64,000 bases of DNA. Source: Candidatus Scalindua japonica. GTDB lineage: Bacteria; Planctomycetota; Brocadiia; Brocadiales; Scalinduaceae. The translations under genes and the position numbers were made by a program. This document shows positions 27,784 to 52,330 of the stretch, in pieces. Each line of letters starts with the position of its first letter. Positions within the stretch are counted from its first letter, which is position 1. Where the stretch lies: assembly GCF_002443295.1 (NCBI RefSeq), contig NZ_BAOS01000022.1, positions 1-64,000 on the forward strand. Reading direction: 5' to 3'. The notes under the pieces are model-generated. The model ran no database searches. It was not told the DNA's origin and was given only the letters and a program-made list of their open reading frames with translations.

Positions 27784-30750
27784 CTAATTCCCATAATAAT
27801 AGACAAAAGGTGCCCAATAGTATGGCGCTCTATATTTCTCTCCAAAGTCACCACTAATAAATCGGCGTTTCACCTCTGTAATGGCATCCGCATAGCGCAT
27901 ACCATTGTCTTGAACAAGGCCATACATCGTTGCCATGAACGGAGAGTTAGACTCACCTGCCACTCTCCAGAGTGAAATGGAAACAGACTTTGCTCCGGAC
28001 AAGAAAAAAGAGTGGATTAGCCTGGAAAATCCTTCATGCTCGTAAATCCCTCCCAAACCTGCGTCAAAAGCTGAAAGGTTTACCAGATCAGCCCTGATTT
28101 CCATCTTTGCAATCTCTTCGGCACGTAAATAGCCATCCTCTTTTCCCATATCTTTAAATTGTGATAAGACCAGGGCTGATAGTTCAGGGGCCTCCGGAAC
28201 GACAAGACCATGGGTAGCGAAATGGAGTGCTTTGTAATCAAAAAATTTCCAGTCATTACATAGCTCTTTTATGTCTCTTTCCGATACATTCTTACCGGTA
28301 AAAATATCTGATCTTTTGACTGTTTTTTTAATTTTCTGGACTTCACTCATAGTGTTCGGCAGGTCAGGCCATGAAGAGAGACCCAGACCCCTGTATGCAT
28401 TTCCAATAGACCTAAGATTTTCATAATCGGGATAGAGATTCTGCATTAAAAGATCCATCCGCATATTTTCCAGACTGGAGTAAATATTTTTTGTTAAAAC
28501 TGACAGTTGGACTCTGTTCTCTATCATTTCTGCCTTAAAATCGGGACCTTTGTAAACTGCCCCGCCAAACGCCAGCAAAGGTTTACGGTTTTCATCATAT
28601 TTTCGCTTTTTTATAAGTTTCCGTATATCCAGAGATTGTATGTAACTTATACTACACTTTTCTACCATATATTGTCCATTTTCATCAATAAGCGTGCCGA
28701 AAGGTATATAGGTCAGAATCCCATCCGGAACAATAATGAGTTTTTTCTTGTCCCTGATCTTTTCCTCCAATGGCTTAATGAGCAGTCCGTATAGAGATCT
28801 TCCTATCTCTCTAGTATCAGTTTTACGCTGGCTATTACTTGTACTGGCATCCGCCACCGTACTTTTACTGTCCTGCACAGGAAGTTCACTTAATAAAGAG
28901 CCGTAGTAGTTGATAACATTACTAAAATCACTTTTGTTTTCGCTTAGACTACGTTGATTTAATAATAACGTCTTTATTTTAGTATTGTATTTATCAATAG
29001 ATGATTGAACAAAGGATTCTCGCGAAAGCTCTATACCCATAATCTCCTCTCTCGTAATAGCAATCTGTACTATTTTTTCCTGGTTAGCATTCGCGTAGAC
29101 AATGATCACAGTATCATCATCCAGAGTTTCCTTAATTTCATCTATATCCTGAGGCCATAATCCTCTTTCCCGTTTCTTTTTGTCTTTTTCACTCTCAAAA
29201 AACATTTCAATCTGTAACTTTGCCCTGACAAGCTCAATAGCCTGAAAGGCGGACGGTGCATCATTATCTTTGATATAGGCAGAGGTAAGCAGTTGATAAG
29301 CGTTGTAGAGATCGTACAATAAGCGCTTGCGTAGTTTTCCTGTTTCTGTTTCACGTAACTCTTCTATTATGGAAACAGATTCTTTAAGGCGCTCAATTGC
29401 TATTTTATATTTTTCTTGTGAGATGGAAGTTTTACCAATTCCGATGAGATCACTGATGATATCAAAATCCTTCCCGATTTTTATATCATTAGCCAACTCC
29501 CTTTCATAAGGATAGATGATCTTGTCATGTTTATTCCAGTAAAAGCGATAAAACAGAGTAATGTTATTATCAATAAGAATCTCTCCCACCTCTTTGCTCA
29601 ATTTTCTGTCCACCGCTAAAGCCTTTTCATAGTATTCAACGGCCTTGTCATAGTTCCCCTGTGTATTATAAACACTACCAATATTTTTTAGACTTATGGA
29701 AGTCTGATTATCCTCTTCCGGCTCCCTTGCTATACCAAGCGCATCTTCAAAATATTTAACGGCCCTTTCATGTTGCCCTTGAGATTGGTAAACAGTGCCA
29801 ATATTGTTGAGACAGGCAGCAACGTTGTCACCCTGCCTCAGATTCCTGTATAGATCCATGGCCTCTTTATAATACTTAACAGCCTTTTCATATTGACCCT
29901 CTGATTTGCAAACTTCACTAAGCTTATTAAGCGTGCACCTAAAGGCAATACTATCTTGCTTAAACAATTTTCTAGATATATCCAGAGAGTCCTCAAAACA
30001 CTTGATAGAGGTATCATGTTGCCCCCACGAATTGTAAGCGTTACCCATATTGCTGAGCGCATTTGCAATCCCTTCTTCCAGACCCAGTTTTCTATCTATC
30101 GATAATGCTTCTTCGTAGTATTTTATGGCATTATCAAATTTTCCAATAGCCTCATAGACTCTGCCAATATTATCGAGACCAGTAGCTACCTTTTCTTCCC
30201 TGCCAAGTTTTTTGTCTATTTCTATAGCTCTCTTAATATTTTCAAGTGCTGTATCATGTTGCCCCAGGAAGTTATAAGTATCACCGATGTAGTTAAGATT
30301 ATCAGCAGCCTTACCCTCCAGTCCCAATCTTGTGTATATATCTAAAGCTTTCTGATAATACTTGAGGGCCACATCATATTTCGTCAAATAGTTGTAAAAA
30401 TACCCAAAGCGGTTATAGCATTCGGCAACGACATCTTCCCTTTCAAGATTTTCTGCAATCTTTAAAGCTTCTTCAATTTTCTCAGTAGCCATTTTATATT
30501 GACCGGCCAGAGAATAATAGTAAGCTGCCTGATTCAGATCCGTTACTAAATGTAATTTAATTGGAGCCGAAGAGCTTTTTTCTATTTGCACAGATTTTTC
30601 ATATACCTCTGCAGCCATGAGATACTCGCCTGAATTTTCCAGTTTTTGTGCTTTATACCGGTTTGTATCAATAGTCCGCTCTTCCTGTGCATAAAGAGAT
30701 GAACCGGTAAATAATATTAATATCAGGATAAATAAACCTATTTTTTTCAT
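27784..30750 (-). CDS. Secreted TPR-CHAT protein, likely protease-inactive
   Basis: The 988-residue protein has a signal peptide (MKKIGLFILILILFTGSSLYA), then about nine TPR units (residues 30-420), a helical linker, and a C-terminal CHAT domain (about 690-985). The caspase-like His is present in LHFATHGLVVPEAPELSALVLS (about residue 848), but the place of the catalytic Cys (usual LSACxTGLG) reads LSAFDAGLGG (about 893), so Phe replaces Cys. The Ser/Gly-rich part FLSGAKSVSISLW is conserved. It is probably periplasmic and may act as a scaffold. No CRISPR genes are nearby. Confidence 0.88.
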   Translation of the reverse strand: MKKIGLFILILILFTGSSLYAQEERTIDTNRYKAQKLENSGEYLMAAEVYEKSVQIEKSSSAPIKLHLVTDLNQAAYYYSLAGQYKMATEKIEEALKIAENLEREDVVAECYNRFGYFYNYLTKYDVALKYYQKALDIYTRLGLEGKAADNLNYIGDTYNFLGQHDTALENIKRAIEIDKKLGREEKVATGLDNIGRVYEAIGKFDNAIKYYEEALSIDRKLGLEEGIANALSNMGNAYNSWGQHDTSIKCFEDSLDISRKLFKQDSIAFRCTLNKLSEVCKSEGQYEKAVKYYKEAMDLYRNLRQGDNVAACLNNIGTVYQSQGQHERAVKYFEDALGIAREPEEDNQTSISLKNIGSVYNTQGNYDKAVEYYEKALAVDRKLSKEVGEILIDNNITLFYRFYWNKHDKIIYPYERELANDIKIGKDFDIISDLIGIGKTSISQEKYKIAIERLKESVSIIEELRETETGKLRKRLLYDLYNAYQLLTSAYIKDNDAPSAFQAIELVRAKLQIEMFFESEKDKKKRERGLWPQDIDEIKETLDDDTVIIVYANANQEKIVQIAITREEIMGIELSRESFVQSSIDKYNTKIKTLLLNQRSLSENKSDFSNVINYYGSLLSELPVQDSKSTVADASTSNSQRKTDTREIGRSLYGLLIKPLEEKIRDKKKLIIVPDGILTYIPFGTLIDENGQYMVEKCSISYIQSLDIRKLIKKRKYDENRKPLLAFGGAVYKGPDFKAEMIENRVQLSVLTKNIYSSLENMRMDLLMQNLYPDYENLRSIGNAYRGLGLSSWPDLPNTMSEVQKIKKTVKRSDIFTGKNVSERDIKELCNDWKFFDYKALHFATHGLVVPEAPELSALVLSQFKDMGKEDGYLRAEEIAKMEIRADLVNLSAFDAGLGGIYEHEGFSRLIHSFFLSGAKSVSISLWRVAGESNSPFMATMYGLVQDNGMRYADAITEVKRRFISGDFGEKYRAPYYWAPFVYYYGN

Positions 30751-30937
30751 TTATTTCTTACAAAATAGCAGGAATCTGTCCTCTCTATCGAGAGGACGGG
30801 CATATTTTCATACAAAGTGGTTATGTAAAGTCAGTTTTCCCCATTCGACTATGTCATTCAAGTGAACAAACAGATTTTTTCATCATGGCTTTTTTGTAAA
30901 ACCACTCCTACATTGTATTAAAAATTTCATGATAAAA

Positions 30938-30970
30938 AAAAAGGCGCTCATCTCTGAGCGCCTTTTTTAC
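30938..30970 (-). terminator. Rho-independent terminator
   Basis: AAGGCGCTCA and TGAGCGCCTT pair perfectly around TCTC, with A-runs on the left and T-runs on the right, so it can work in both directions. It lies 46 bases beyond the stop of the octaheme gene (minus strand) and just before the TPR-CHAT promoter region. Confidence 0.9.
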
Positions 30971-31015
30971 TATCTAATCACTACGGACAATCGACATCCG
31001 CATTAATGTACTTAT

Positions 31016-32767
31016 TTAATAATTCAACTCATCTACTTCCCACACATTGCCTGTCGGAACACCACTACTCTTCTTTTTTGGTGCCGCATGGCCTTCACTA
31101 CTACCACTGCTGCTATGTGAAACGGGCTGCGCACCTCCACGCTGTTCTAAAGCATGCTCTCTACGCATTCTCAAGCCCTCTGACTGGATTTTTCCAAGCT
31201 GCTGGAACATTGGTGCCTGTCCCCACCACCACATGATATCCTGCTGTGCGTGGGCATAACCTTTGTAGCCCTGAAGTTTATACCAGAACCACATTTTGGC
31301 ATATTCCGTCTCAATTACGGATGGATTATTCTCACCCTGGTAGAACATTGCATATACACCAAGGATTGGCCCGACAACCGGTACCTTTCCACCTAACGAC
31401 TTAAACGCATTATAAACACCTTCTCCGATTAACTCTGGAGGGAGCAACTCGGCAACTTTATCGCCAAACGGATAGATATCACGCTCTGCCACAGACGGGT
31501 ACAGAATATCTTCAGCGATAAGATCGTCAATTATCTTCTGTGCCTGATCAGTAAGGCCAAATGCCTGGAACATATAATCGTCAAGTTGCTCTAAATATGT
31601 ATAAGCAAAGCGAGGACTATGACAGTTAGAACAAACTTCTACCCATTTATCTCTCTTATCCAGATTTTCATCTGAATATACGTCTATCTTTGGAGCAATT
31701 ATGTTAATCCCATAAGGGTAATCCTTAAGCGATGATTTATACTCAATATTTGACGGAGGAACTGTTCCCATACGCCAGATACCCTTTGAAACGAAATTAT
31801 GTGTAAATGTTCCACCACCCTGATACATATGGCAGAACTGACATGTTGGTGTACGATATTCTTCACCAACCTGCACATGAGCAAGAGGTTTGTCAAAGTT
31901 GTAGCTCTCCTCCTCCATCTCTAAAATCATACCGTGCTTTGATTCACCATAGGATTCAGCATCCGGATGGTCAGGACCCATGTGACACGTCATACAGGCT
32001 TTTGGATTTCTTGCTTCTGCAGCAGAGAATGAGTGCCTGGTGTGACAAGGATCACATTTGGTAGAGATACCGTGACACATATCACAACCGGCATTACCTG
32101 CCAGCCACCCTCTTCTATCAGCCTCAGGATACCAGGGAACAAGAACGTTAGCCTCCATCGCCTGTATGTGATTAGGTCGACCATGATTTTTCTCACTGTT
32201 AAACTGGCGTACCTGTCTTTCGTGACACTCGCTGCAGATCTCAGCATGAGGCATCCTTATCTCGTTTTTCTCCGTGTCAGCATGACAGTCAAAACAGTCA
32301 ACGTTGATAATTTCTCTTCCAATTGATTCTTCTATGATTTTTGTCTTACGAGCTATTAAAGGTGTCTTTCTCGGATTGAAATGAGCAGAACCTTTCCAGT
32401 CATGGACTGCACCGGTATTAATACCATCATGACACCTTATACACAAATCCCTACGCTCTTTCTCAATAAACAGGGAGTGATCCAGAATATCCATTGGTTC
32501 ATAATGCCTCATCGGAGACATGTACATCTGCATCTTCAAAGGTTTGTAATAGTCTTTAAATAGACCTGCACCCTCACTCAGGCCAACATTATCCTTAAAC
32601 ACTGGACTGTACCAGTCAGGAAACCCTTCATATATATCGACAAACTTCGGCACGTAAGGCTCCTTCTCCGCCTTCTCATCATGTGCCAGAACTGACCCTG
32701 AGAACTGTATGGCTATAACCAGCAATGCCATAGTAACGAAAAGCATCAGCTTTTTTGCATAATTCAT
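31016..32767 (-). CDS. Octaheme HAO-type cytochrome c (putative nitrite-reducing type)
   Basis: The 583-residue secreted protein has a signal peptide ending near SVLAHDEK and eight CxxCH motifs in HAO order: CIRCH, CFDCH, CSECH, CDMCH, CDPCH, CMTCH, CQFCH, CSNCH. The C-terminal helical domain carries GYAHAQQDIMWWWGQ. HAO-family enzymes convert hydroxylamine, NO or nitrite in the anammoxosome. The diheme gene directly upstream matches the known Kuenenia kustc0457/kustc0458 arrangement, whose octaheme member reduces nitrite and lacks the Tyr cross-link; I could not place that Tyr here. Start 32767 is chosen since AAAGGAG lies about ten bases before it; an ATG at 32776 is too close. Confidence 0.92.
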   Translation of the reverse strand: MNYAKKLMLFVTMALLVIAIQFSGSVLAHDEKAEKEPYVPKFVDIYEGFPDWYSPVFKDNVGLSEGAGLFKDYYKPLKMQMYMSPMRHYEPMDILDHSLFIEKERRDLCIRCHDGINTGAVHDWKGSAHFNPRKTPLIARKTKIIEESIGREIINVDCFDCHADTEKNEIRMPHAEICSECHERQVRQFNSEKNHGRPNHIQAMEANVLVPWYPEADRRGWLAGNAGCDMCHGISTKCDPCHTRHSFSAAEARNPKACMTCHMGPDHPDAESYGESKHGMILEMEEESYNFDKPLAHVQVGEEYRTPTCQFCHMYQGGGTFTHNFVSKGIWRMGTVPPSNIEYKSSLKDYPYGINIIAPKIDVYSDENLDKRDKWVEVCSNCHSPRFAYTYLEQLDDYMFQAFGLTDQAQKIIDDLIAEDILYPSVAERDIYPFGDKVAELLPPELIGEGVYNAFKSLGGKVPVVGPILGVYAMFYQGENNPSVIETEYAKMWFWYKLQGYKGYAHAQQDIMWWWGQAPMFQQLGKIQSEGLRMRREHALEQRGGAQPVSHSSSGSSEGHAAPKKKSSGVPTGNVWEVDELNY

Positions 32768-32815
32768 AATACTCATTCTCCTTTAATTTATTTTATATCA
32801 AAAATCTTAACCGAC

Positions 32816-33616
32816 TTACTCCGCATGGTCTTCTTTGTTTGTTTTGGTAGCAAGTGATTTTACAAAATGCACCATACACCAACGGTCTTCGTCTGAAAGT
32901 TCATTAGCAAAAGATGGCATCGGCGTACCATTCACACCTGTTGTAAACCTCAAGTAGATATCTTTATTTGTTGCGCCTCCCTTAAACTTATCCTGCCTGG
33001 TAAAATTATAGGCCTGAATTGGGATTCCCCACTCGTCTTCAAGATCATAACTGCTTGGACCATCTCCTTCTCCTGTCTCACCATGGCATTTCCAGCACTC
33101 TTTCTGAAAATAAAGTTCCCTACCCCTCGCAATAGTCTTCTGGGTAGACCTCAACTCTGGCCCTAAAACTACTGATGGCTCAGGTTCTCTATACTGCCAG
33201 GCTTCTGAAAAGCTTTTCAAAACGGGAAGTAACGACGTAATCTGGTCTTTGTCAAGAATATCCCATGGCATCATAGATGTCCCATGGATCCCGACCGAAA
33301 TTACATGAATGAGATCCGCATCGGTAGGTAAAGAACCTGATGGATTTGTGCGTATCTTATATTGACCCTTTGTAAAATCCCTGGGTTTTGGGTAAAGTGC
33401 GCCATATAACGGACCATAGCCATCACCATCTTCGCCATGACACGGAGCACAATATTTATTGTAAAGATCCTTGCCCTTAAGTTTTTCTCCAGCCATTACC
33501 GTGTTACCAAGGCATAGCATGGACACAAAAACAATAATCATTGCGCTGAATATAATATTCCCCCAGCACAAATTGTTTCGTCCACTAATTCCTTTCTTAC
33601 CATTCAAATATGCCAC
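32816..33616 (-). CDS. Diheme cytochrome c, partner of the octaheme protein
   Basis: The 266-residue protein has an N-terminal membrane/signal segment (IIFSAMIIVFVSMLCLGNTVMA) and two cytochrome c domains with CAPCH (about residue 57) and CWKCH (about 173); distal Met ligands may lie in GTSMMPW and GTPMPSF. It starts with GTG at 33616 preceded by GGGAGGA. It is the first gene of an operon with the octaheme protein, 48 bases apart. It probably passes electrons to or from that enzyme on the anammoxosome membrane side. Confidence 0.9.
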   Translation of the reverse strand: MAYLNGKKGISGRNNLCWGNIIFSAMIIVFVSMLCLGNTVMAGEKLKGKDLYNKYCAPCHGEDGDGYGPLYGALYPKPRDFTKGQYKIRTNPSGSLPTDADLIHVISVGIHGTSMMPWDILDKDQITSLLPVLKSFSEAWQYREPEPSVVLGPELRSTQKTIARGRELYFQKECWKCHGETGEGDGPSSYDLEDEWGIPIQAYNFTRQDKFKGGATNKDIYLRFTTGVNGTPMPSFANELSDEDRWCMVHFVKSLATKTNKEDHAE

Positions 33617-34358: not shown

Positions 34359-35123
34359 TCACTGTTTTTTCTTAAGCTCTTTTATTTCTTTTTGCCATTC
34401 ATCCTCCTGCCTCTTTCGCTCAGTAATATCCCTGATTATCCCTTCAATACGAATGGGTATGCCTGCTTCATTTTTAACCATAGTAGATGTTCGTTCAGTG
34501 TAAAAATGCTCGCCATTTTTCTTCTTACAAAATGACGCAAAACCCATCCAGACCCCATCTTCTCGAAGCTTCTTAACGAGCCTTTCTCTGTCTTTTTGAT
34601 CGACATAGATATCCCTTACCTTTGTCCCAATCATTTCTTCAGGGGATGTGTAACCAAACATTTCTGCACATGCCTGATTTACCCACGTAAACTTCCCATC
34701 CACTCCGGGTTCAGATTGGTAAACACCCTCCTTTAGCGATTCCAAGAGTAGCCTTTTATCTCTTTCAGACTTTTGCAATTGAACCTTTTCCATTTCCAGT
34801 TGTTCTTTTGCACGTTCAAGCTCCTGGTTTATGTGTCTGATTTTTATATCTTGTCCTCTTAACGAGTCTGCAACCTTTTCCGCTTCCAGCTTTTGTCCCA
34901 CTGCTTCTTCAACCAGTTTAAATCCCTCTTCTGGCGAACCAAAAGCTTTCATGATTCTTTTTTCCATATTTTCAGCAAATGTTTTTTCCCTGACAAAACC
35001 CGCATCCTTCATATCATTGTATTTGTGTATCATCTTAACCGTAAAACCAACATCCAAAAACAATATCAGCAGAATAATGGTCTTCGCGTTTACTGAAAGA
35101 CCCTTAGAGTTTCCATTACCCAT
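34359..35123 (-). CDS. Membrane-anchored coiled-coil PAS sensor without output domain
   Basis: The 254-residue protein has one N-terminal membrane helix (AKTIILLILFLDVGFTV), a long coiled coil (about 65-125) and one PAS domain with PAC motif (FTWVNQACAEMFGYTSPEEMIGTKVRDIYVD; RIEGIIRDITERK). There is no kinase, cyclase, chemotaxis or DNA-binding domain. The PAS domain is very close to that of the next upstream gene, so the two are paralogs. It may act through partners, perhaps on the same signal. Confidence 0.85.
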   Translation of the reverse strand: MGNGNSKGLSVNAKTIILLILFLDVGFTVKMIHKYNDMKDAGFVREKTFAENMEKRIMKAFGSPEEGFKLVEEAVGQKLEAEKVADSLRGQDIKIRHINQELERAKEQLEMEKVQLQKSERDKRLLLESLKEGVYQSEPGVDGKFTWVNQACAEMFGYTSPEEMIGTKVRDIYVDQKDRERLVKKLREDGVWMGFASFCKKKNGEHFYTERTSTMVKNEAGIPIRIEGIIRDITERKRQEDEWQKEIKELKKKQ

Positions 35124-35228: not shown

Positions 35229-36797
35229 TCATCGCCCTGACTTTTTCTGGCTTTCATTTTGCAGATCATCTTCCTTTTTTTTTCTGTCGCTAATGTCCCT
35301 GATCACACCCTCAATACGAACAGGCTTCCCTTTTTCATCCTTCACCAGATGTGAGGTACGTTCTGTATAAAATTTGCCTCCATTCTTATTCATGCAATAT
35401 GACGTAAAATCTTTCGAGGCACCATCTTTTTCAAGTTTATCTAACAGTTTTTTCCTATCAGCCTGATCCACATAGATATCCTTTACCTTAGTACCTTCCA
35501 TCTCTTCAGGAGATGCATAGCCAAACATTTCCGCACAAGATTTATTTACCCATGTAAAGCGACCTTCAACTCCCGGTTCACATTGATAGATTCCCGCCTG
35601 AAGAGCATTAAATAATTCCCTATAAGCATTTTCAGATTCCACGATCTCTTTAGTTTTCTTATCCAATGCTTCTGCCATTGAATTAAAAGACGTTGCCAGA
35701 ACGCCAAGCTCATCTCCTCTATTTACATTTACCCGCTGAGCCAGATCTCCCGCAGACATCTTTTCAGTTGCCTCAGTTAACTCAATTATCGGGGTAGATA
35801 TTTTTTTACCAACAACGTACGCAAAAAACACAATCGGGAATGCGATTCCAAACAACAATACCCAGCCAAGGGTATTGAGATTGTAGGCCACTCCGTAGAC
35901 TTCTGCCTTATCTATCTCGGTAATAACAGCCCAATCAAGCTCAGGCAGCCAACGCCATACACCCAATACTGATATACCCGCGTAATCTTGATAACCCTTT
36001 GAACTGGAACCGTTCTTGCCCTTAAGACACTGGCTAACAGAATAAGTCAACTTCCCGTTATCGGGATTAACCACCTTCAACTCTAAAGCACTTCTTGTCT
36101 TAATCATTCCGGTTTTCTTTAAATTCTTACTAAACCTTGATTCAGTAAGCATATATCCATCTTTACCGACAATGAACGTTTCACCTGTTTTCCCAAACTT
36201 TTGACTTTGCAGCAAATTGCTCAAAGTAGCAACATGGATTCTGAACGCAACGACCCCAATCACAGTATCACCATCTTTTAAGGGAGCAGACACAAACAAT
36301 GTAGGCAAACCTACTTCCTTCCCATCAAACTCATTCGTAAGGGCAATTACAGACGGTATGATACTAGTAGCATATGGTTTTCCTTGCATAGCCTGCTTAA
36401 TAAAATCTCTTCCAGAAAGATCACCTCCCACCTCTTCTTCTGATGTAGCAAGTGTAACTATTCCATCTGCGTTGCATACAAACGCACCCTTGTAACCATA
36501 TTCCGAAACAACCAACTCTAGATATTCTGTAGCCTCTCTATCGTCCCCCCCCGCGCTCTTCAAGCTATTAGCAATATATGGATTGTTCGCTGCAACTATA
36601 ACATCCGTCTTCCTATCCTTCATCCATGATGACACTAAGTCAGCCTGCTTGTTACCTACCGTTTCGAGATTATCCATGATTACAGTTCTGAGATCAGACT
36701 GAATCTTTGGGTACGCAATAATCCTCAGCAACACAAACGGTAACAGAGTAAAGAAAATCAGAATTAATATGATGTAATGTTTAATCGATACCTTCAT
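35229..36797 (-). CDS. dCache-HAMP-PAS membrane sensor without output domain
   Basis: The 522-residue protein has a first membrane helix (YIILILIFFTLLPFVLL), a periplasmic double Cache domain (about 35-300, with GYKGAFVCNADGIVTLATS and a second half DWAVITEIDKAEVY), a second membrane helix (LGWVLLFGIAFPIVFFAYVV), a HAMP domain (ISTPIIELTEATEKMSAGDLAQ) and one PAS/PAC domain. It ends soon after the PAC, so no transmitter is attached. dCache domains bind small ligands such as amino acids or carboxylates. It lies 105 bases upstream of the paralogous PAS gene. Confidence 0.88.
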   Translation of the reverse strand: MKVSIKHYIILILIFFTLLPFVLLRIIAYPKIQSDLRTVIMDNLETVGNKQADLVSSWMKDRKTDVIVAANNPYIANSLKSAGGDDREATEYLELVVSEYGYKGAFVCNADGIVTLATSEEEVGGDLSGRDFIKQAMQGKPYATSIIPSVIALTNEFDGKEVGLPTLFVSAPLKDGDTVIGVVAFRIHVATLSNLLQSQKFGKTGETFIVGKDGYMLTESRFSKNLKKTGMIKTRSALELKVVNPDNGKLTYSVSQCLKGKNGSSSKGYQDYAGISVLGVWRWLPELDWAVITEIDKAEVYGVAYNLNTLGWVLLFGIAFPIVFFAYVVGKKISTPIIELTEATEKMSAGDLAQRVNVNRGDELGVLATSFNSMAEALDKKTKEIVESENAYRELFNALQAGIYQCEPGVEGRFTWVNKSCAEMFGYASPEEMEGTKVKDIYVDQADRKKLLDKLEKDGASKDFTSYCMNKNGGKFYTERTSHLVKDEKGKPVRIEGVIRDISDRKKKEDDLQNESQKKSGR

Positions 36798-37058: not shown

Positions 37059-37574
37059 TTACCACCAGGCAACAGGATAATCCCTTTTGCCCCATCTATT
37101 GATGATAATTGCTGTTAATACTAAAATAAAGGCGCCAAAAAGAACAGGATTTAGAATATACCAATAATCCTGACCCAAGCCTCCAGTCTGAATGGCCACA
37201 TATGCTGTAGCACCTGCCGGAGGATGTACGGAATACGTAACCATCATGAAAATAATCGCTAAAGTAACGCCAAGTGTCAACGACCACCACGAGAGACCAA
37301 AGAAGTCGTATATGGCAACACCCATTAACGCACCAAGAAAATGCCCTAACAAAACATTTCTCGGTTGTGCAAGTGGAGCCTTGTATGCTCCGTAAACCAG
37401 AACTGCCGATGCACCAAAGGGCCCTAAGAGCAGGGGACATTTCCAGGTAAAAGCAAGAATAGCCGTAATCCCTACACCAACCATGGAACCAACAAAAGTA
37501 ACCCACAACACTTTCCATGCAATCGGTGGTTGCGGCGCCTTGGGCAATTCACTAATCTTATCGAATAACGACAT
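37059..37574 (-). CDS. HPP-family membrane protein, putative nitrite transporter
   Basis: The 171-residue protein has about four to five membrane helices and the family motif HPPAGATAY, preceded by PFGASAVLVYGAYKAPLAQPRNVLLGH. Cyanobacterial and plastid HPP proteins transport nitrite. Its place downstream of FNT-type nitrite channel genes on the same strand fits this role. GGGGAGA stands before the ATG. A 54-residue copy of its first part lies at 38832-38996. Confidence 0.88.
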   Translation of the reverse strand: MSLFDKISELPKAPQPPIAWKVLWVTFVGSMVGVGITAILAFTWKCPLLLGPFGASAVLVYGAYKAPLAQPRNVLLGHFLGALMGVAIYDFFGLSWWSLTLGVTLAIIFMMVTYSVHPPAGATAYVAIQTGGLGQDYWYILNPVLFGAFILVLTAIIINRWGKRDYPVAWW

Positions 37575-37932
37575 AGTTCTATTCTCCCCATGAAATATAT
37601 TTTATAAATTACAGGTTAATAATGCCTCACCATACTTGAACAACAGCACTTTTGCCACATTTTTGTACTAGATGCCGTTTGACGTATTATACTATACACA
37701 TACGCCAAAGTAGAAAATCCTTGTTATTTATTTTATTTAAATATATCGCGGCGACTGTCTGCCGAGTTTAAGGTAATTATTTTTACACTTAAACTTGAAG
37801 GAAAGCCGCAGAACATTGACACGTTCTCGCATCTGCCCAACCGTGTCAATGCAACTGCTTAACAAACTTACTTACGCCGAATGTGATCAAAAAAAACGCC
37901 TCATTACATCCAAATAACTATCCTTGTCGAGA
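37575..37932. other. Spacer between FNT copy 1 and HPP, with conserved hairpin
   Basis: No gene seen in 358 bp. It is homologous to the spacer at 38997-39320. The main conserved structure is the hairpin at 37814-37851; GTTTAAG and CTTAAAC (about 37766-37796) form a weaker stem. Confidence 0.6.
37814..37851 (-). promoter_or_regulatory. Conserved 10-bp stem-loop in the FNT-HPP spacer, copy 1
   Basis: CATTGACACG (37814-37823) pairs perfectly with CGTGTCAATG (37842-37851) around 18 bases. GCAG (37808-37811) and CTGC (37855-37858) extend it after a small internal loop. The other copy has a compensating pair change, which supports a selected structure, such as an attenuator or an mRNA-end stabiliser. 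Confidence 0.6.
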
Positions 37933-38832
37933 TTAACCAGGAAGCACCTCTACGATATTGTTGTCATTTTCATCTACACCAACTATCTGACCACCTGGCA
38001 CTGCACCTCGAGTGGGACCTACGAGACTTCTTGTTCTTCCTCCATCACCATTAGGAACCAAGTCCTCTACAGGCGCATGCGTAGCAAACCAGTATGCCAG
38101 TCCAATCAAACAACCACCTACGATATTGCCGGTACTTGCAGCAGCCATGTTCCAGGCAAAACCTCCGCATGTAACATTTGCAGGATGAGTAGTGAACAGA
38201 GCGGCGCCAAAAATAGTCATATTAGCTATGCAATGTTCAAAACCGCATGCGATAAATGCAAATAGACACCAGAATATCAGGAACACTCTGGCAGCCTCAT
38301 TTTTAGCCTTTGCCGACATCCAGACAGCCAGACATACGAGCATATTACAGAGAATACCACGACAAAACAGATAGAAAAACGGAGCATTCATTTTGGCACC
38401 GGCAACCTTACAGATAAACTTGCCCGTAATGTTCCCGTCTCCCAATCCCGTATTAGCATAAATAAGGGCCAACAACAACGCACCGGCGAGGTTACCAAAC
38501 CAGCAAACAAACCAGAGCCAAATCATCCAGCCCCAACCTGTCTTTCCCCTGAGACATCCAATCAACATCACCATATTGTTACCGGTGAACAGTTCGGAAC
38601 CCGCAAAGACAACGAGCAACAGGGCAAGAGCAAACGACGTTCCCATAACCATCTTAACAGCCGGAGACTTAACAGCAGCGAACTGCGCCCCGACCGTAAA
38701 TATGAGAAGAATTCCAAACCCGATGTACATACCTGCCAACATTGAGAGAACCCAATACTGACAAAACTTGTTCCTTATCATATCTTCCTTTGCAACTGCC
38801 ACACCCGTAAACGTATCTACCGTTGCTTTCAT
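37933..38832 (-). CDS. Formate/nitrite transporter family channel, copy 1
   Basis: The 299-residue protein has the six-helix FNT fold: KSPAVKMVMGTSFALALLLVVFAGSELFTGNN, FGNLAGALLLALIYANTG and the conserved His in CGFEHCIANMTIFGAALF. Family members pass nitrite, formate or similar anions as pentamers. A polar C-terminal tail of about 45 residues ends DENDNNIVEVLPG. It differs from copy 2 in only a few residues before the tail. The ATG overlaps the stop of an HPP stub (TAATG). Nitrite uptake is the likely role in an anammox setting. Confidence 0.93.
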   Translation of the reverse strand: MKATVDTFTGVAVAKEDMIRNKFCQYWVLSMLAGMYIGFGILLIFTVGAQFAAVKSPAVKMVMGTSFALALLLVVFAGSELFTGNNMVMLIGCLRGKTGWGWMIWLWFVCWFGNLAGALLLALIYANTGLGDGNITGKFICKVAGAKMNAPFFYLFCRGILCNMLVCLAVWMSAKAKNEAARVFLIFWCLFAFIACGFEHCIANMTIFGAALFTTHPANVTCGGFAWNMAAASTGNIVGGCLIGLAYWFATHAPVEDLVPNGDGGRTRSLVGPTRGAVPGGQIVGVDENDNNIVEVLPG

Positions 38833-38996
38833 TAATTCATCCCCATCCTTTCAAAGGGCCATTTCCAGGTAAAAGCAAGAATAGCCGTAATCCCTACACC
38901 AACCATGGAACCAACAAAAGCAACCCACGACACTTTCCATGTAATCGGCGGTTGCGGCCCCCCGGGTAATTCACTAATCTTAACGAATAACGACAT
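38832..38996 (-). pseudogene. HPP-family gene stub (54 codons) from duplication
   Basis: The frame MSLFVKISELPGGPQPPITW continues to GITAILAFTWKW, then PFERMGMN and stop. Up to FTWK it follows the HPP gene at 37059-37574 closely; after that it runs into the leader of FNT copy 1. Its TAA shares a base with the FNT start codon, so ribosomes reading it would end exactly at that start. It may be dead, or serve as a coupling peptide. Confidence 0.8.
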
Positions 38997-39320
38997 AATT
39001 CTATTCTCTCCCTTTTATACACTACAGGCTAATAACGCTTCAGCATACTTGAAACAACAACACTTTTGCCGCATTTTGCACTAGTGCCGCTTGACATACT
39101 ATACACATACGCCAAAGCAGAAAATCCTTATTATTTATTTATAAATATATCGGCGACTGTCTGCCGAGCTTAAGGTAATTATTATTACACTTAAACTTGA
39201 AGGAAAGTCGCAGAACATTGGCACGATTAAGCATATGCCTAACCGTGCCAATGCAACTGCTTAACAAATTTACTTTACGCTGAATGTGATAACAAAACTA
39301 TCTCACTCAGACGGAAATAA
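38997..39320. other. Spacer between FNT copy 2 and the HPP stub
   Basis: No gene seen in 324 bp. The sequence is a diverged copy of 37575-37932, sharing GCATACTTGAA, CACTTTTGCC, ACACATACGCCAAAG and the hairpin at 39216-39253. Confidence 0.6.
39216..39253 (-). promoter_or_regulatory. Conserved 10-bp stem-loop in the FNT-HPP spacer, copy 2
   Basis: CATTGGCACG (39216-39225) pairs perfectly with CGTGCCAATG (39244-39253). Compared with copy 1, an A-T pair has become G-C on both strands of the stem, while the loop has changed freely. The same outer GCAG/CTGC pair is kept. Confidence 0.6.
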
Positions 39321-40268
39321 CTATCCTTGTCGAGATGAACTTGGAAGCACCTCAACGATATTGTTGTCATTTTCATCTACACCAACTATCTGACCTCCCG
39401 GTATTGCACCTTGAGTCGGGTCTACAAGACTTATTGATCTTCCGCCATCCCCACTAGCACCAACAGCCTTCCGAGAAAGAGGACCACCAGGAACCAAATC
39501 CTCTATAGGCGCATACGTAGCAAACCAGTATGCCAGTCCAATCAAACAACCACCTACGATATTGCCGGCACTTGCAGCAGCCATGTTCCAGGCAAAACCT
39601 CCGCATGTAACATTTGCAGGATGAGTAGTGAACAGAGCGGCGCCAAAAATAGTCATATTAGCTATGCAATGCTCAAAACCGCATGCGATAAATGCAAATA
39701 GACACCAGAATATCAGAAACACTCTGGCAGCCTCATTTTTAGCCTTTGCCGACATCCAGACAGCCAGACATACGAGCATATTACAGAGAATACCACGACA
39801 AAACAGATAGAAAAACGGAGCATTCATTTTGGCACCGGCAACCTTACAGATAAACTTGCCCGTAATGTTCCCGTCTCCCAATCCCGTATTAGCATAAATA
39901 AGGGCCAACAACAACGCACCGGCGAGGTTACCAAACCAGCAAACAAACCAGAGCCAAATCATCCAGCCCCAACCTGTCTTTCCCCTGAGACATCCAATCA
40001 ACATCACCATATTGTTACCGGTGAACAGTTCGGAACCCGCAAAGACAACGAGCAACAGGGCAAGAGCAAACGACGTTCCCATAACCATCTTAACAGCCGG
40101 AGACTTAACAGCAGCGAACTGCGCCCCGACCGTAAATATGAGAAGAATTCCAAACCCGATGTACATACCTGCCAACATTGAGAGAACCCAATACTGACCA
40201 AACTTGTTCCTTATCATATCTTCCTTTGCAACTGCCACACCCGCAAACGTATCTACTGTTGCTTTCAT
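39321..40268 (-). CDS. Formate/nitrite transporter family channel, copy 2
   Basis: The 315-residue protein is the near twin of the gene at 37933-38832, with the same FNT helices and the conserved GFEHCIANM. The C-terminal tail is longer and has its own insert (VPGGPLSRKAVGASGDGGR) before the shared GQIVGVDENDNNIVEVLP. The start at 40268 is chosen because it matches copy 1 (MKATVDTF) and GGGGGG stands just upstream. As the first gene of the duplicated unit it has the long 762-bp upstream region, where regulation probably takes place. Confidence 0.93.
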   Translation of the reverse strand: MKATVDTFAGVAVAKEDMIRNKFGQYWVLSMLAGMYIGFGILLIFTVGAQFAAVKSPAVKMVMGTSFALALLLVVFAGSELFTGNNMVMLIGCLRGKTGWGWMIWLWFVCWFGNLAGALLLALIYANTGLGDGNITGKFICKVAGAKMNAPFFYLFCRGILCNMLVCLAVWMSAKAKNEAARVFLIFWCLFAFIACGFEHCIANMTIFGAALFTTHPANVTCGGFAWNMAAASAGNIVGGCLIGLAYWFATYAPIEDLVPGGPLSRKAVGASGDGGRSISLVDPTQGAIPGGQIVGVDENDNNIVEVLPSSSRQG

Positions 40269-41030
40269 TAATCCATCCCCCCCTTTCAATTAGGAAAGTA
40301 AAAAAATAAAATTTCGCAATATGACCAGGCAGCCTTCCATACTGCCCTTACCACATCACACCTAATAAAAATGCTATAAAAACTTTATAATAAGAACTTA
40401 TGAAAACAATTAACCAAAAGCCCTGACAAAAATAAAGATTATACGAAGCGATATAGTGCTTAAGAGTGGAGAGCAATTGTGATACCAAAATTATTTATAA
40501 GTAAAAAGGCTAATATCTATATCTCTATAAACATCTATGAACAAAAAAGATAGAACCTTTCGGCAAAATGTAATTTTAGAACCACAAAAAACGTGATTTG
40601 ACAAAATGTCAAATCACAATTGGAACATAAATTATTTAAAGACATAATGTCTTCCCACTACACAAGAAGCGGTATCTACAAATTTAATAAGATTTGAAAA
40701 GAAAAAGAGTAATGTGGCAGGTGTACAAACAGCATGTAAATTAAAGTCGAACTTATAAAACAATTTTGGAACTTAGCATTTTCAAAAGAAATAAATAGCG
40801 GCCCGATAATAGTAGTGTTTTTTTATCATGAAACAGATGAAACACAGCCCCCCCGGAACACATACTAATTACTTTACAGCTGAGCCAGTTCATAAGACCG
40901 CTGTCAGGAATATAAATGGAGGAAACTGTTTTTTATAAAGCTATGTTTCTATTGCAGGCGACAATCCACTCGTGCCAGGAACAAACTACAATACATTTGA
41001 AACAAACCTGGCTGAACTTAAAACATTAGC
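40269..41030. other. Intergenic region, 762 bp, upstream of FNT copy 2
   Basis: No gene recognised. AT-rich, with a perfect palindrome at 40593-40617 as the one clear structure. A run of seven C followed by GG is at about 40848-40856. Promoters for the FNT unit should lie here on the minus strand. Confidence 0.5.
40593..40617. promoter_or_regulatory. Perfect 11-bp inverted repeat, candidate operator
   Basis: GTGATTTGACA (40593-40603) and TGTCAAATCAC (40607-40617) are exact inverted copies around AAA. The core half-sites TTGAC and GTCAA, five bases apart, resemble CRP/FNR-type boxes, which usually have four bases between. It lies 325 bases upstream of FNT copy 2. A terminator is less likely, as no T-run follows. 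Confidence 0.45.
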
Positions 41031-41465
41031 TCATAAACCGCCTGCAATGTAATTTTCAAGCTGTTGAATGGTAAATTCTTTATCAACAATATACTGCTTC
41101 ACAACATCACCGATACTTACAATACCAATCAACTTCTCCCCTTCAAGCACTGGTAAATGACGTGTACGTTTTTCTGTTATCAGAGCCATACAGTCGTTTA
41201 ATGTATTTTCAGGTCGAACAAAACATGGTTTTGGATTCATCAGGTCTTTGACCAATGTACTCTTTGATGATTTACCTTGCAGCACAATATTCCTTGCATA
41301 ATCACGTTCTGAGAAAAGCCCTACGACTTTTTCATCCTTAACAACCACTAACGCGCCAAGGTCCTTTTCCGCCATTATTTCCAATGCCATGTATACAGTA
41401 TCCTGAGGTGAAATTGTCAGAATATTACTAGATTTATCTTTCAATATCTCTTTTACAGTAATCAT
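41031..41465 (-). CDS. CBS-domain-pair protein
   Basis: The 144-residue protein is made of two CBS domains (VKEILKDKSSNILTISPQDTVYMALEIMAEKDLGALVV; LVKDLMNPKPCFVRPENTLNDCMALITEKRTRHLPVLEG) and nothing else. CBS pairs bind adenine nucleotides and often regulate channels or enzymes. It lies upstream of the FNT genes on the same strand, but 762 bp away, so shared regulation is uncertain. Confidence 0.92.
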   Translation of the reverse strand: MITVKEILKDKSSNILTISPQDTVYMALEIMAEKDLGALVVVKDEKVVGLFSERDYARNIVLQGKSSKSTLVKDLMNPKPCFVRPENTLNDCMALITEKRTRHLPVLEGEKLIGIVSIGDVVKQYIVDKEFTIQQLENYIAGGL

Positions 41466-41763: not shown

Positions 41764-43329
41764 TCACTCTTTCCTCTTCCAACCCAGCAACAAATCAGTA
41801 TACTCTCCTTGCTTCCAGAAAGAGTATGCACTGTGCTTGATCCCTATCTTTTTTTCTATCTCAGCAATCCGTTTAAGCTTACTTGCTTCATCCTTGATCA
41901 TAATAAGCCATCGGTCCTGAGCCCATTCCCAATACCCATAAACAGGACTGTAATACGCATTGTGCGACTTGGCTTTAAAGATAGCATCAATAATATCTAC
42001 CAACATTTCGTATGCCAGTCTTTCGATGTTAGACACATTATATTTTCTCATTTCACCCTTACCAGGCAAAAGGCTGAAAACATTGTGGCCGGTAGAATCG
42101 GGAGCAAGGCCAGCGGGCATAGGGTCTATCAGATTGTGATTATACAAATCCATCACAATACGCATAGCCTCACGGTATTTAACAAAACTGAGTTTAACCG
42201 CTTCATCCATTGCTTCTAAATGGTCCCTTGCAAAACGGGGTGAATGACAATCCTTGCAAACCGCAATCCACGCGTCCCTTGTCGCCTTATACCTGTCGGC
42301 CCCCCTGTCTACAAGAGAAGTACCCATGTAAGTATAAACGGTAGATGTACTGATAACATTATGGTCTCCTTCAGGCATATGGCAGTATGCGCATGTTGGC
42401 ACAGTATAATTTTCCGCGTTAAGAGGTTTTGTCCAATCCCATGTTTGCCCTTCTCCCTGAAAAATCATACCGTGGTATGATTGCATGTACATCTCATACT
42501 CGTATTGTTCAGGGCCGGAATGGCAGACCGCACAGCTGTTTGGTTTTCTGGCTTCAGTCAAAGAAAAACGGTGCCGGGTATGGCACCCGTCACATCGGTT
42601 CTCGACCACATGACAACCTAAGCAGGCAGTCGTCTCTTCTGCAGGCTTCTCCGTCTGGCAACCTAACTCGATCAACTCAAGATGATAAGCATTAGCATGT
42701 GAACCTTGTCCTCCTTGACGATGTCCCTGTAATTGCTTTTCATGACATTCACCACAAATATCATAAGAAGGCATAATAAGTTTTTTATGATTCTTCCCAT
42801 GACATCTGTCACATCCGACGACACCTTCTCCTCCTGACGGCTTTGAATGTTTGCTCTGTTTCCACTGTTTTACAATTCCGGGACTTTCAACCATATGGCA
42901 GGTAACACACTCAGTATTTACAAACTCCCCTTCTACCGTGCTGCCAGGATGAAAGATGTCATTATTATAGTAATGCGCGGGGTCGTACCATCGTATCACA
43001 GGCAGAAAATTAAAAAGATGTCCGTACGTTCCTTTTCCCGGAAAGAGTTTCTCCGGCCCGGTATAAAAACTTGAAAGCCCACCCGCATGATGAACGCTTC
43101 CGGAATCATCCGGACCGACCCTTTCTCCCAGAAGTTCAGCCATCTCGTATTGAAACTTCATGTCACCAGGCATCTCCCCTGCTGCAGATGCTGTCTCATC
43201 CAGAAGTGTTTCAAGGTTAATCTCTTCTCTTTTTTGCGCAAAAGAAGAAGAGGTTGAAATATACGGAACAAAAAAAATGAATAACAAAAGTGTGATAATC
43301 GAACTCTTTTTTGTGTTTATATTTAACAT
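41764..43329 (-). CDS. Second octaheme HAO-type cytochrome c
   Basis: The 521-residue protein has a signal peptide (IITLLLFIFFVPYISTSSSFA) and eight CxxCH motifs: CVTCH, CDRCH, CGECH, CLGCH, CDGCH, CAVCH, CAYCH, CKDCH. The C-terminal helical part has AYYSPVYGYWEWAQDRW, and candidate Tyr residues for a heme cross-link lie here. It is only distantly like the octaheme protein at 31016-32767, so they are likely different HAO subfamilies. There is no diheme partner. Start at 43329 follows GGAGGTG by five bases; a longer frame to 43380 lacks this. Confidence 0.9.
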   Translation of the reverse strand: MLNINTKKSSIITLLLFIFFVPYISTSSSFAQKREEINLETLLDETASAAGEMPGDMKFQYEMAELLGERVGPDDSGSVHHAGGLSSFYTGPEKLFPGKGTYGHLFNFLPVIRWYDPAHYYNNDIFHPGSTVEGEFVNTECVTCHMVESPGIVKQWKQSKHSKPSGGEGVVGCDRCHGKNHKKLIMPSYDICGECHEKQLQGHRQGGQGSHANAYHLELIELGCQTEKPAEETTACLGCHVVENRCDGCHTRHRFSLTEARKPNSCAVCHSGPEQYEYEMYMQSYHGMIFQGEGQTWDWTKPLNAENYTVPTCAYCHMPEGDHNVISTSTVYTYMGTSLVDRGADRYKATRDAWIAVCKDCHSPRFARDHLEAMDEAVKLSFVKYREAMRIVMDLYNHNLIDPMPAGLAPDSTGHNVFSLLPGKGEMRKYNVSNIERLAYEMLVDIIDAIFKAKSHNAYYSPVYGYWEWAQDRWLIMIKDEASKLKRIAEIEKKIGIKHSAYSFWKQGEYTDLLLGWKRKE

Positions 43330-43532
43330 AGTCACCTCCATATTAATGTAGTATTTAAAGGAGCATTGGAAAAACAACACAAATTATATGCAAATCTTAT
43401 CACGAAATGAAAATATGTATACTTTTTATTTTCTTAAATATTGCTGATAAATATTGAATAATCAGGATTTATATACTACTATATTTTAATTATTTAATGT
43501 GATGCACACCATTTTTCGTTGGTATTAATTGA

Positions 43533-49061: not shown

Positions 49062-50045
49062 CTATTTATTGCCTCTTTGTTTCTTCGGTCTTCCTCTTGG
49101 TAATACATTTAATACCCGTCCTATTCTCCTGCCTAACTTCGCAACAAAATCTTTTGTTCCCAATGGCCGTCCCAACAACGTATGTTTTCTTATCTTTTCA
49201 ACTTTCTCATCGTTTTCATCTGAATTAATGTACTCTTTCCACTCTTCCGCAGTTGTATCTATTAAGGATGTTATATTTTCTAAATTAATTACTCCATCTT
49301 CCTGTCCCACATGTACTCCCGCACTTGACCATTTCCATCGCCAGGGTTTTCTTACTATACCTGCACGCACCGGGTTCCTCTCTACATATCGTAACGCCGC
49401 CACCAAATAGTCTTCATCCATGACGCACGAATAAAAACGTCCTTGCCATAAGTGGCCGGATGTATTCTTCTTTTTATTAAAATATTGCGAATACTGCATA
49501 TGGGAAATGCTGAAAGTTCCCAATCCAAGATGTGAAAATTTTGTGTCATAGATTAAATAAACACTGCTTAGGCAATCATCTCCTTTGTCCAGAAATCCTA
49601 CCGCGATCAGTTCGTCATTAAGATAGTATTCTGATTGAAGGCTTGGGGTGGAGGGTGAGAAGAAGCCTTCAATGAACTCTTCTATCGTACATTCCTGTGA
49701 GAAACGTTGATTTGAATGGTCTTGATAAATTCCAAAGGCCCTTTCACTGAATTTAAGTGGGCCGAAAGTGACATCGATGTTACTGTTCTTTTTCAGATTG
49801 CGCCTCTGACTTTTAGACGGCTTAAACTCATCAGATATAACTCGAATGGGAATACACTCCTGGCAGTCAGGACAGGACGGTTGAAAAGAATATACACCAA
49901 ATTTCCTCCATCCTTTTTCAAGCAAAAATGAAATCTCAGATTCATCAAGCTCACTTGCAAGAAAATATTTGATCTGCTTTTTTCTGTCCGGCATATAAGG
50001 ACAGAGAGAAAGCTCTCCTATATCCAGTTCTCTATGTAGAATCAT
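49062..50045 (-). CDS. Chimeric gene: leucyl/arginyl-tRNA-protein transferase start fused to a transposase tail
   Basis: Residues 1-177 match Bpt-type aminoacyl-tRNA-protein transferases (ELSLCPYMPDRKKQIKYFLA, SCPDCQECIPIR, FKPSKSQRRNLKKN, ending SHLGLGTFS). The rest, from ISHMQYSQYFNKKKNTSGHL on, equals the C-terminal 150 residues of the REP-type transposase at 51596-52276. The DNA matches that gene from 49052 to 49515 with about four differences and no gaps. The Bpt part lacks the C-terminal catalytic half, and the transposase part lacks the HUH motif, so neither activity is expected. The frame is open throughout. Confidence 0.85.
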   Translation of the reverse strand: MILHRELDIGELSLCPYMPDRKKQIKYFLASELDESEISFLLEKGWRKFGVYSFQPSCPDCQECIPIRVISDEFKPSKSQRRNLKKNSNIDVTFGPLKFSERAFGIYQDHSNQRFSQECTIEEFIEGFFSPSTPSLQSEYYLNDELIAVGFLDKGDDCLSSVYLIYDTKFSHLGLGTFSISHMQYSQYFNKKKNTSGHLWQGRFYSCVMDEDYLVAALRYVERNPVRAGIVRKPWRWKWSSAGVHVGQEDGVINLENITSLIDTTAEEWKEYINSDENDEKVEKIRKHTLLGRPLGTKDFVAKLGRRIGRVLNVLPRGRPKKQRGNK

Positions 50046-51588: not shown

Positions 51589-52330
51589 ACAGACACTATT
51601 TATTGCCTCTTTGTTTCTTCGGTCTTCCTCTTGGTAATACATTTAATACCCGTCCTATTCTCCTGCCTAACTTCGCAACAAAATCTTTTGTTCCCAATGG
51701 CCGTCCCAACAACGTATGTTTTCTTATCTTTTCAACTTTCTCATCGTTTTCATCTGAATTAATGTACTCTTTCCACTCTTCCGCAGTTGTATCTATTAAG
51801 GATGTTATATTTTCTAAATTAATTACTCCATCTTCCTGTCCTACATGTACTCCCGCACTTGACCATTTCCATCGCCAGGGTTTTCTTACTATACCTGCAC
51901 GCACCGGGTTCCTCTCTACATATCGTAACGCCGCCGCCAAATAGTCTTCATCCATGACGCACGAATAAAAACGTCCTTGCCATAAGTGGCCGGATGCATT
52001 CTTCTTTTTATTAAAATATTGCGAATACCGCATATGGGAAATGCTGAAAACCCTTGCCAGTGAATCTTCTTCTCGTGGGATGCCAATGAAATGAACATGG
52101 TTATCCATCAAACAATAGGCGAAAATCGATAACTTATATTTCTTACTGTAATAATCTATCCAGGAAAGATAACTTAATCGATCTTCGTCGTCTTCAAAGA
52201 CGTCTTGTCGATAGTTTCCCCTTTGTGTGATATGATATGGTAAGTTTGGGACAACAATCCTTGCTGTGCGTGGCATTATAGAATATTAATAATGGTTAGG
52301 TAAAATGTCAAGTAAATTAGTGTCTGTCCC
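51586..52330. mobile_element. REP-type transposon with 13-bp inverted ends
   Basis: GGGACAGACACTA (51586-51598) and TAGTGTCTGTCCC (52318-52330) are exact inverted copies flanking one Y1 transposase gene. A third piece, GGGACAGA, is at 52379-52386 and could pair with the right end. The element has replaced part of an FAD-reductase gene. Confidence 0.7.
51596..52276 (-). CDS. REP-associated Y1 (IS200-like) transposase
   Basis: The 226-residue protein has the family start MPRTARIVVPNLPYHITQRGN, the HUH motif in CLMDNHVHFIGIP, a helix with the likely catalytic Tyr (SISHMRYSQYFNKKK) and the usual GHLWQGRFYSC and RYVERNPVRAG. The C-terminal extension is basic (GRRIGRVLNVLPRGRPKKQR). Such enzymes act on single-stranded DNA at REP palindromes. 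It seems intact and is the source of the tail fused to the Bpt-like gene at 49062. Confidence 0.92.
   Translation of the reverse strand: MPRTARIVVPNLPYHITQRGNYRQDVFEDDEDRLSYLSWIDYYSKKYKLSIFAYCLMDNHVHFIGIPREEDSLARVFSISHMRYSQYFNKKKNASGHLWQGRFYSCVMDEDYLAAALRYVERNPVRAGIVRKPWRWKWSSAGVHVGQEDGVINLENITSLIDTTAEEWKEYINSDENDEKVEKIRKHTLLGRPLGTKDFVAKLGRRIGRVLNVLPRGRPKKQRGNK

Follow-up and report, generated by a model that had tools for sequence, protein, structure and literature searches.

The stretch of DNA analysed here (64,000 nucleotides; hereafter the window) lies within a 219-kb contig (C22) of a Candidatus Scalindua genome of 4.81 Mb in 47 contigs. On its minus strand, as assembled, it carries two near-identical genes for channels of the FNT family, FNT-A and FNT-B, together with one intact gene for an HPP membrane protein and a truncated copy of that gene (HPP'). 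Read along that strand, the order is an HAO-like gene, a CBS-domain gene, a terminator-like site, FNT-A, a spacer, HPP', FNT-B, a second spacer, HPP, a Cache/PAS gene, a PAS gene, a c-type cytochrome gene and a second HAO-like gene (Table 1). We consider it probable that the locus as a whole reflects a tandem duplication, later gene conversion between the channel genes, an extra dose of channel, nitrite as the cargo and a role for an RNA element that follows each channel gene.

Table 1. Features of the FNT/HPP locus, in the order of the minus strand
Feature	Position in window	Strand	Remarks
HAO-like multihaem protein	41764..43380	-	Nearest solved relatives 4N4J and 6T5E
CBS-domain protein	41031..41465	-	Conserved neighbour upstream
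Intrinsic-terminator-like site	40592..40618	-	Between CBS gene and FNT-A
FNT-A, 315 aa	39321..40268	-	PF01226 7e-66; pore motif ELFTGNNM; ancestral-like tail ending SSSRQG
481-bp block of FNT-A	39718..40198	-	Same as FNT-B 38282-38762; core of conversion tract
Two-hairpin RNA element, copy A (H1 + H2)	39150..39263	-	3' of FNT-A
HPP', truncated copy of HPP 5' end	38832..38996	-	54 codons
FNT-B, 299 aa	37933..38832	-	Second channel copy; shortened linker, premature stop, ends VLPG
Two-hairpin RNA element, copy B	37749..37861	-	3' of FNT-B
Intact HPP membrane protein	37059..37574	-	PF04982
Cache-HAMP-PAS sensor protein	35229..36797	-	Conserved gene directly after HPP
PAS protein	34359..35123	-	Conserved partner of Cache/PAS gene
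c-type cytochrome	32816..33616	-	Homologue of 6H5L chain B (291 bits); HAOr redox partner type
Octahaem HAO-like protein	31016..32776	-	Homologue of 6H5L chain A (769 bits); HAOr nitrite-to-NO type

A genome-wide search finds four FNTs, two at this locus (PF01226 scores of 222 bits for FNT-A and 221 bits for FNT-B; curated cut-off 34.6) and two at 205-207 kb. The intact HPP is the sole protein in the genome over the PF04982 cut-off (164.3 bits; cut-off 27.2), and HPP' gives no second match. Compared by tblastn, HPP' corresponds to HPP residues 1-48 at 83% identity. Its frame stays open for 54 codons, where the intact protein has 171, and its TAA overlaps the ATG of FNT-B by one base (TAATG). 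HPP' tracks HPP to about codon 46, where a 15-nt deletion restores 8 further matching bases GCCCTTTG; beyond these the FNT leader TTGAAAGG takes over. FNT-B is thus preceded by HPP' in place of the native FNT leader. This breakpoint structure implies that the repeated unit comprises FNT, the spacer and the start of HPP, so that the duplication is one of FNT-spacer-HPP' and not of two FNT-HPP pairs. A sequence-only reading of the region had proposed a recent duplication of an FNT-HPP pair, which the two tandem channel genes bear out and the single intact HPP does not. HPP' as a second functional HPP was rejected on its length and on the derived differences given below.

The survey covered 17 genomes of the family, that of the window among them, and regions from 11 relatives' genomes were inspected. 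FNT-A has a match in 13 of the 17 genomes and HPP in 15, and the order FNT-HPP-Cache/PAS-PAS is kept where contigs allow, mostly with the CBS gene upstream. The unit is therefore found in related genomes and the duplication is not, since HPP' occurs only in the genome of the window (G000). Extra FNT copies arose independently elsewhere: G003 has a second FNT (79% DNA identity) that adjoins a cytochrome-HAO pair, and G004 has a frameshifted relic of an FNT tail between its HAO and CBS genes. Some variation in these regions concerns the neighbouring genes. The HPP of G004 (L054, 3587-4096) is only 68% identical to that of the window and its FNT 88%, the corresponding values in G009 being 92% and 84%; in G004 a more distant type of HPP may have taken the place of the original one. 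In G009 the HAO-like gene beside CBS (L055, 6309-6913) seems internally deleted, with only three fragments left, and in G008 the HAO-like gene gives no match between CBS and ADH.

The evidence for gene conversion comes from an alignment of the FNT-A and FNT-B units with 7 further Scalindua units, in which the core is defined as FNT codons 1-260. Between FNT-A and FNT-B, the core differs at 9 of 780 nucleotides (5 amino acid changes; synonymous divergence, dS, 0.023), the tail at 19 of 135, the spacer at 48 of 322 and the HPP part at 9 of 137. In the control comparison of FNT-A with G004, differences number 91 of 780 in the core, 20 of 159 in the tail, 123 of 314 in the spacer and 43 of 137 in HPP. 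Within the pair, dS is 0.008 for codons 1-183 (1 of ~124 sites), 0.059 for codons 184-260 and 0.324 for the tail, whereas between FNT-A and G004 the values are 0.490, 0.385 and 0.359, respectively (0.46 for the whole core). The roughly 40-fold contrast between core and tail synonymous sites within the pair is therefore absent between species (Fisher test on counts rounded to whole sites: p = 2e-6 for FNT-A/FNT-B and p = 0.57 for FNT-A/G004). In addition, when the 85 differences were shuffled, none of 20,000 shuffles reached the observed identical run of 481 bp, the largest shuffled run being 241. Thus, synonymous divergence is lost locally, with sharp edges, in a way not seen between species, and gene conversion is strongly supported over constraint: core and tail dS are similar between species, and constraint therefore fails to explain the contrast within the pair. 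The intermediate dS of codons 184-260 suggests more than one conversion event.

Counting substitutions thus upholds three earlier suggestions, namely that the FNT genes are near-identical while their spacers have drifted, that the copies differ mainly in the C-terminal tail, and that conversion may be involved. The word 'recent', also used earlier, suits the shared core and not the duplication event itself, as the tail dS of 0.32 indicates. FNT-A and FNT-B are sisters in the trees of all seven regions (ultrafast bootstrap, UFBoot, 77-100), which makes the duplication younger than the divergence from the relatives sampled, provided that conversion has not erased an older history; with HPP' restricted to one genome of 17, a duplication common to sister species was rejected. 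The C-terminal tail of FNT-A (residues ~261-315, 39321-39490) is a sequence of ~50 amino acids GGQIVGVDENDNNIVEVLP conserved across Scalindua FNTs, and its end is common to G004 and close relatives. The tail of FNT-B is a version of it without the last residues. In the open literature we found nothing linking anammox, a nitrite transporter and gene conversion.

Each channel gene is followed by a covarying RNA element of two hairpins, a long one, H1, and H2. H1 is present in the FNT-HPP spacer of all nine aligned units and H2 in most. In the fold of these 9 sequences (42 pairs), 90.5% of cells are paired and 18 pairs have changed on both sides; none of 500 shuffles reaches this support, and slid versions pair at most 42%. 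RNAalifold alone gave H1 only, and the H2 pairs were proposed from single-sequence folds, so that the H2 counts lean to that structure. H1 is far more stable than its shuffles in all 11 copies (z -5.3 to -9.4). A covariance model finds 11 places at 56.9 bits or more in the 17 genomes. Nine of these served to build the model; the other two follow the G004 relic and the second FNT of G003. Every copy of the hydrosulphide-channel (HSC) type of FNT found in the genus, 11 in all, thus has the element on its 3' side, and the 17 genomes show it at no other place. In the three other genera no match reaches E 0.1, and the remaining matches among those listed score at most 38.8 bits and overlap these places on the opposite strand. 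No match was found at the second, divergent tandem FNT pair of the genome (G000:C22:205411-207401, L177), which scores higher with the FocA model than with NirC.

Rfam gives no match at E <= 1 over 39150-39263 or 37749-37861, and no paper on such a regulatory RNA in anammox bacteria was found in the open literature, judged by titles and abstract starts. A role of H1 and H2 as ordinary terminators is possible and not favoured, since no T-tract follows H1; a terminator scan reports one short site (39150-39167), at the 3' edge of H2 and in copy A only. A dispersed repeat was rejected because strong same-strand matches occur only 3' of FNT. A match at L172:6686-6791 (24.6 bits) was not counted, as it lies ~580 bp past the FNT stop with another hairpin and a T-run between. 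A further match, in L063 (15.3 bits, E 0.41), falls on a hairpin resembling H1 between FNT and HPP in a sister genus and is only suggestive.

These observations are consistent with the following scenario. A tandem duplication would have taken in FNT, the spacer 3' of it and about the first 46 codons of HPP. At the breakpoint the HPP fragment would have become attached to the ribosome-binding region in front of the downstream channel copy; in the simplest path, the ends met at the short homology TTG and 15 nt were then deleted in frame. The tail, spacer and HPP fragment would have diverged afterwards, while the channel body was overwritten by gene conversion at least once recently, giving one intact HPP and two near-identical channel genes. 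The two genes most likely add to the dose of one and the same pentameric channel, in two tail versions and possibly under selection for dosage, and this channel most likely carries nitrite destined for the HAO-type enzymes next door. The hairpins would most likely protect or terminate the channel transcript, which would give more channel than HPP from a single operon. The terminator-like site between the CBS gene and FNT-A suggests that the FNT unit may have its own promoter. The analysis establishes how the duplication is built in the assembly, the signature of conversion, the conservation of the RNA fold and the gene context, while the dosage effect, nitrite as the cargo and the function of the RNA are inferences.

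Several points weigh against this scenario. FNT-B has lost its native leader, and of the nine differences in the HPP 5' region seven are derived in the truncated copy (one is derived in the other and one is unclear), as expected of a relic and not of a functional peptide. In the RNA element, H2 is clear in 8 of 11 copies, weak in G007 (z -1.9) and absent from the first G003 copy and the G004 relic, and the measure of further pair types is not above shuffles (340 of 500). The FNT clade is one of hydrosulphide channels, many of them beside asrABC, which counts against a simple nitrite label. Finally, building of the consensus may have smoothed away differences within the 481-bp block, or sequences of two strains may have become joined.

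The first of these points bears on whether FNT-B matters at all. It is possible, although on balance we doubt it, that FNT-B is a decaying duplicate that stays similar to FNT-A only through chance conversion and has no role in dosage. Besides the missing leader and the premature stop, the tail differences would fit such a decay, since 12 of the 19 are derived in FNT-B and 4 in FNT-A (3 are unclear), and G004 shows that an FNT can be reduced to a tail relic. Against this, FNT-B is fully open, has only 5 amino acid changes in 260, and keeps a start region and the RNA element.

The cargo is a separate question. The closest solved relative of FNT-A is the Clostridioides difficile channel HSC (3TDO; 214 bits, compared with 165 for NirC and 101 or less for FocA), with which it shares the omega-loop and central motifs. 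A tree of 94 FNT sequences, with the two FocA-like copies of the genome as root, places the Scalindua channels in a clade bearing ELFTGNNM (support 0.965), where their nearest neighbour is an asrABC-linked planctomycete FNT (L084), with a support of only 0.71. The motif places Asn at FocA position 93 of the omega loop, as in HSC; according to one study, Asn at this position also occurs in FdhC, NirC-gamma and YfdC-alpha and is thus not unique to HSC (PMC5525234). NirC-beta proteins have His at this position and FocA proteins Ser or Thr, and the channels score well below the NCBIfam cut-offs of both NirC (182-185 bits; cut-off 293) and FocA (166-167 bits; cut-off 290.1). Judged from these sequence features, the channel groups with the hydrosulphide-type FNTs, and its cargo is not readable from its name.

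A channel for hydrosulphide or formate, in a locus not primarily for nitrite uptake, is therefore an alternative to be weighed, and one that we regard as unlikely. In its favour, in addition to the structural relationship and the omega-loop Asn in place of the NirC-beta His, all three asr genes are detected by tblastn in 35 of 72 non-anammox FNT loci, and an NCBIfam check names 9 genes in 5 loci as AsrA, B or C. However, asrABC is not found beside the Scalindua channel, whose neighbours are CBS, HAO-like, HPP and Cache/PAS genes, and a member of the same clade can adjoin nirB (L076, where the NCBIfam check names the neighbour NirB). The FNTs scal00416 and scal04132 of Candidatus Scalindua profunda also lie near HAO genes and are termed nirC-like in the accessible part of their description (PMC3655542), where no tandem pair, conversion, HPP or RNA element is mentioned; this comparison is by description only.

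The c-type cytochrome and octahaem proteins at the far end of the locus are homologues of the two chains of 6H5L, which we take to be the Kuenenia kustc0458/0457 pair. That pair is described as HAOr, a nitrite-to-NO reductase (PMC12485887). With HAO-type enzymes at both ends of the locus, nitrite supply is the best guess. In Kuenenia, the HPP protein KSMBR1_1075 is encoded near focA_2, both are up under nitrite limitation, and the HPP protein has been proposed as a nitrite transporter (PMC7438415). Nitrite transport by the present locus is thus plausible. The sequence-only reading had seen two unlike nitrite transporters here; the Kuenenia proposals and the HAOr-type genes agree with this, although the placement of the FNT in a hydrosulphide-channel clade makes its substrate uncertain, and tight control of nitrite movement, which it also proposed, found no support.

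The same module occurs in the other anammox family, Brocadiaceae, which contributes 33 of the 62 genomes in our order-level set. HPP has a match in all 33, and HPP and FNT lie within about 4.5 kb on one contig in at least 27 (counted by hand). Among 8 such loci fetched, the order is HPP-Cache/PAS-PAS-FNT in 7; the remaining locus, HPP-FNT, lacks the sensor genes. These loci resemble that of Scalindua in holding HPP, Cache/PAS, PAS and FNT in a row, as does the Kuenenia stuttgartiensis focA_2/HPP operon (KSMBR1_1070-1075) in having HPP and FNT close together. The Brocadiaceae loci differ in having a single FNT, placed after the HPP and PAS genes with no tandem copy, of another subtype (ELFTGYNL instead of ELFTGNNM, 37-43% identical); the 8 FNTs form a separate clade. 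By motif and tree, then, Scalindua and the other anammox family have different FNT subtypes in the HPP-sensor module. With arguments about evenly balanced, Scalindua may have swapped the usual anammox channel of this module for a hydrosulphide-type channel with its own RNA, a new family-specific element that would set channel dosage in the operon.

A more technical concern is the assembly. Reads of two strains may have been joined, or a repeat collapsed, in which case the tandem order or the identity of the cores would be spurious. We hold this to be improbable, although the 481-bp identical block is longer than typical short reads and could have been homogenised in the consensus, and the genome is in 47 contigs. 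The gene can evidently trouble assemblers: in G012, contigs C39 and C13 (L056 end and L057 start) break inside FNT with an exact 141-bp overlap at the FNT start, as if at a repeat or strain branch, and a hidden second FNT copy is possible there. On the other hand, the two copies differ at 85 aligned sites and by indels, so they are not one sequence doubled by error; the HPP'/FNT junction is specific and fits a two-step rearrangement; and extra FNT sequences occur independently in G003 and, as a relic, in G004. Strong purifying selection on the nucleotide sequence of the channel body without any conversion, with tail and spacer left to drift, is very improbable. In its favour, the body is conserved between species as protein (nonsynonymous divergence, dN, 0.052 for FNT-A/G004); against it, the synonymous sites of the core vary freely between species (dS 0.46-1.1) and not between the copies (0.023), and the FNT-A/G004 tail dS is no higher than that of the core.

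The combination of tandem duplication and gene conversion shows the same sharp identical tract within otherwise diverged repeats as is known from other tandem paralogues; the mechanism is nothing unusual, and the instance in an anammox transporter is new. The FNTs of the HSC clade in C. difficile accompany asrABC, whereas the Scalindua channel lacks asrABC and carries the ~50-residue conserved tail. The entry of nitrite is an important step for anammox cells and a poorly understood one. In this locus a channel gene has been amplified naturally and its copies converted. The locus also shows that the channel subtype of a conserved HPP-sensor module can differ between anammox families, and its defined RNA element lends itself to tests of a role in channel dosage.

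Minor features elsewhere in the window include an inverted repeat at 30864-31001, between genes ending at 30750 and 31016, which matches several Rfam families below threshold on both strands and is probably a shared terminator. Viral contigs were dropped as a lead, having yielded one weak partial relative only. Two open reading frames (49062-50045 and 51596-52276) have a long C-terminal sequence in common, the second with an N-terminus that is transposase-like by eye, and appear on the same inspection to be a repeated gene of mobile type.

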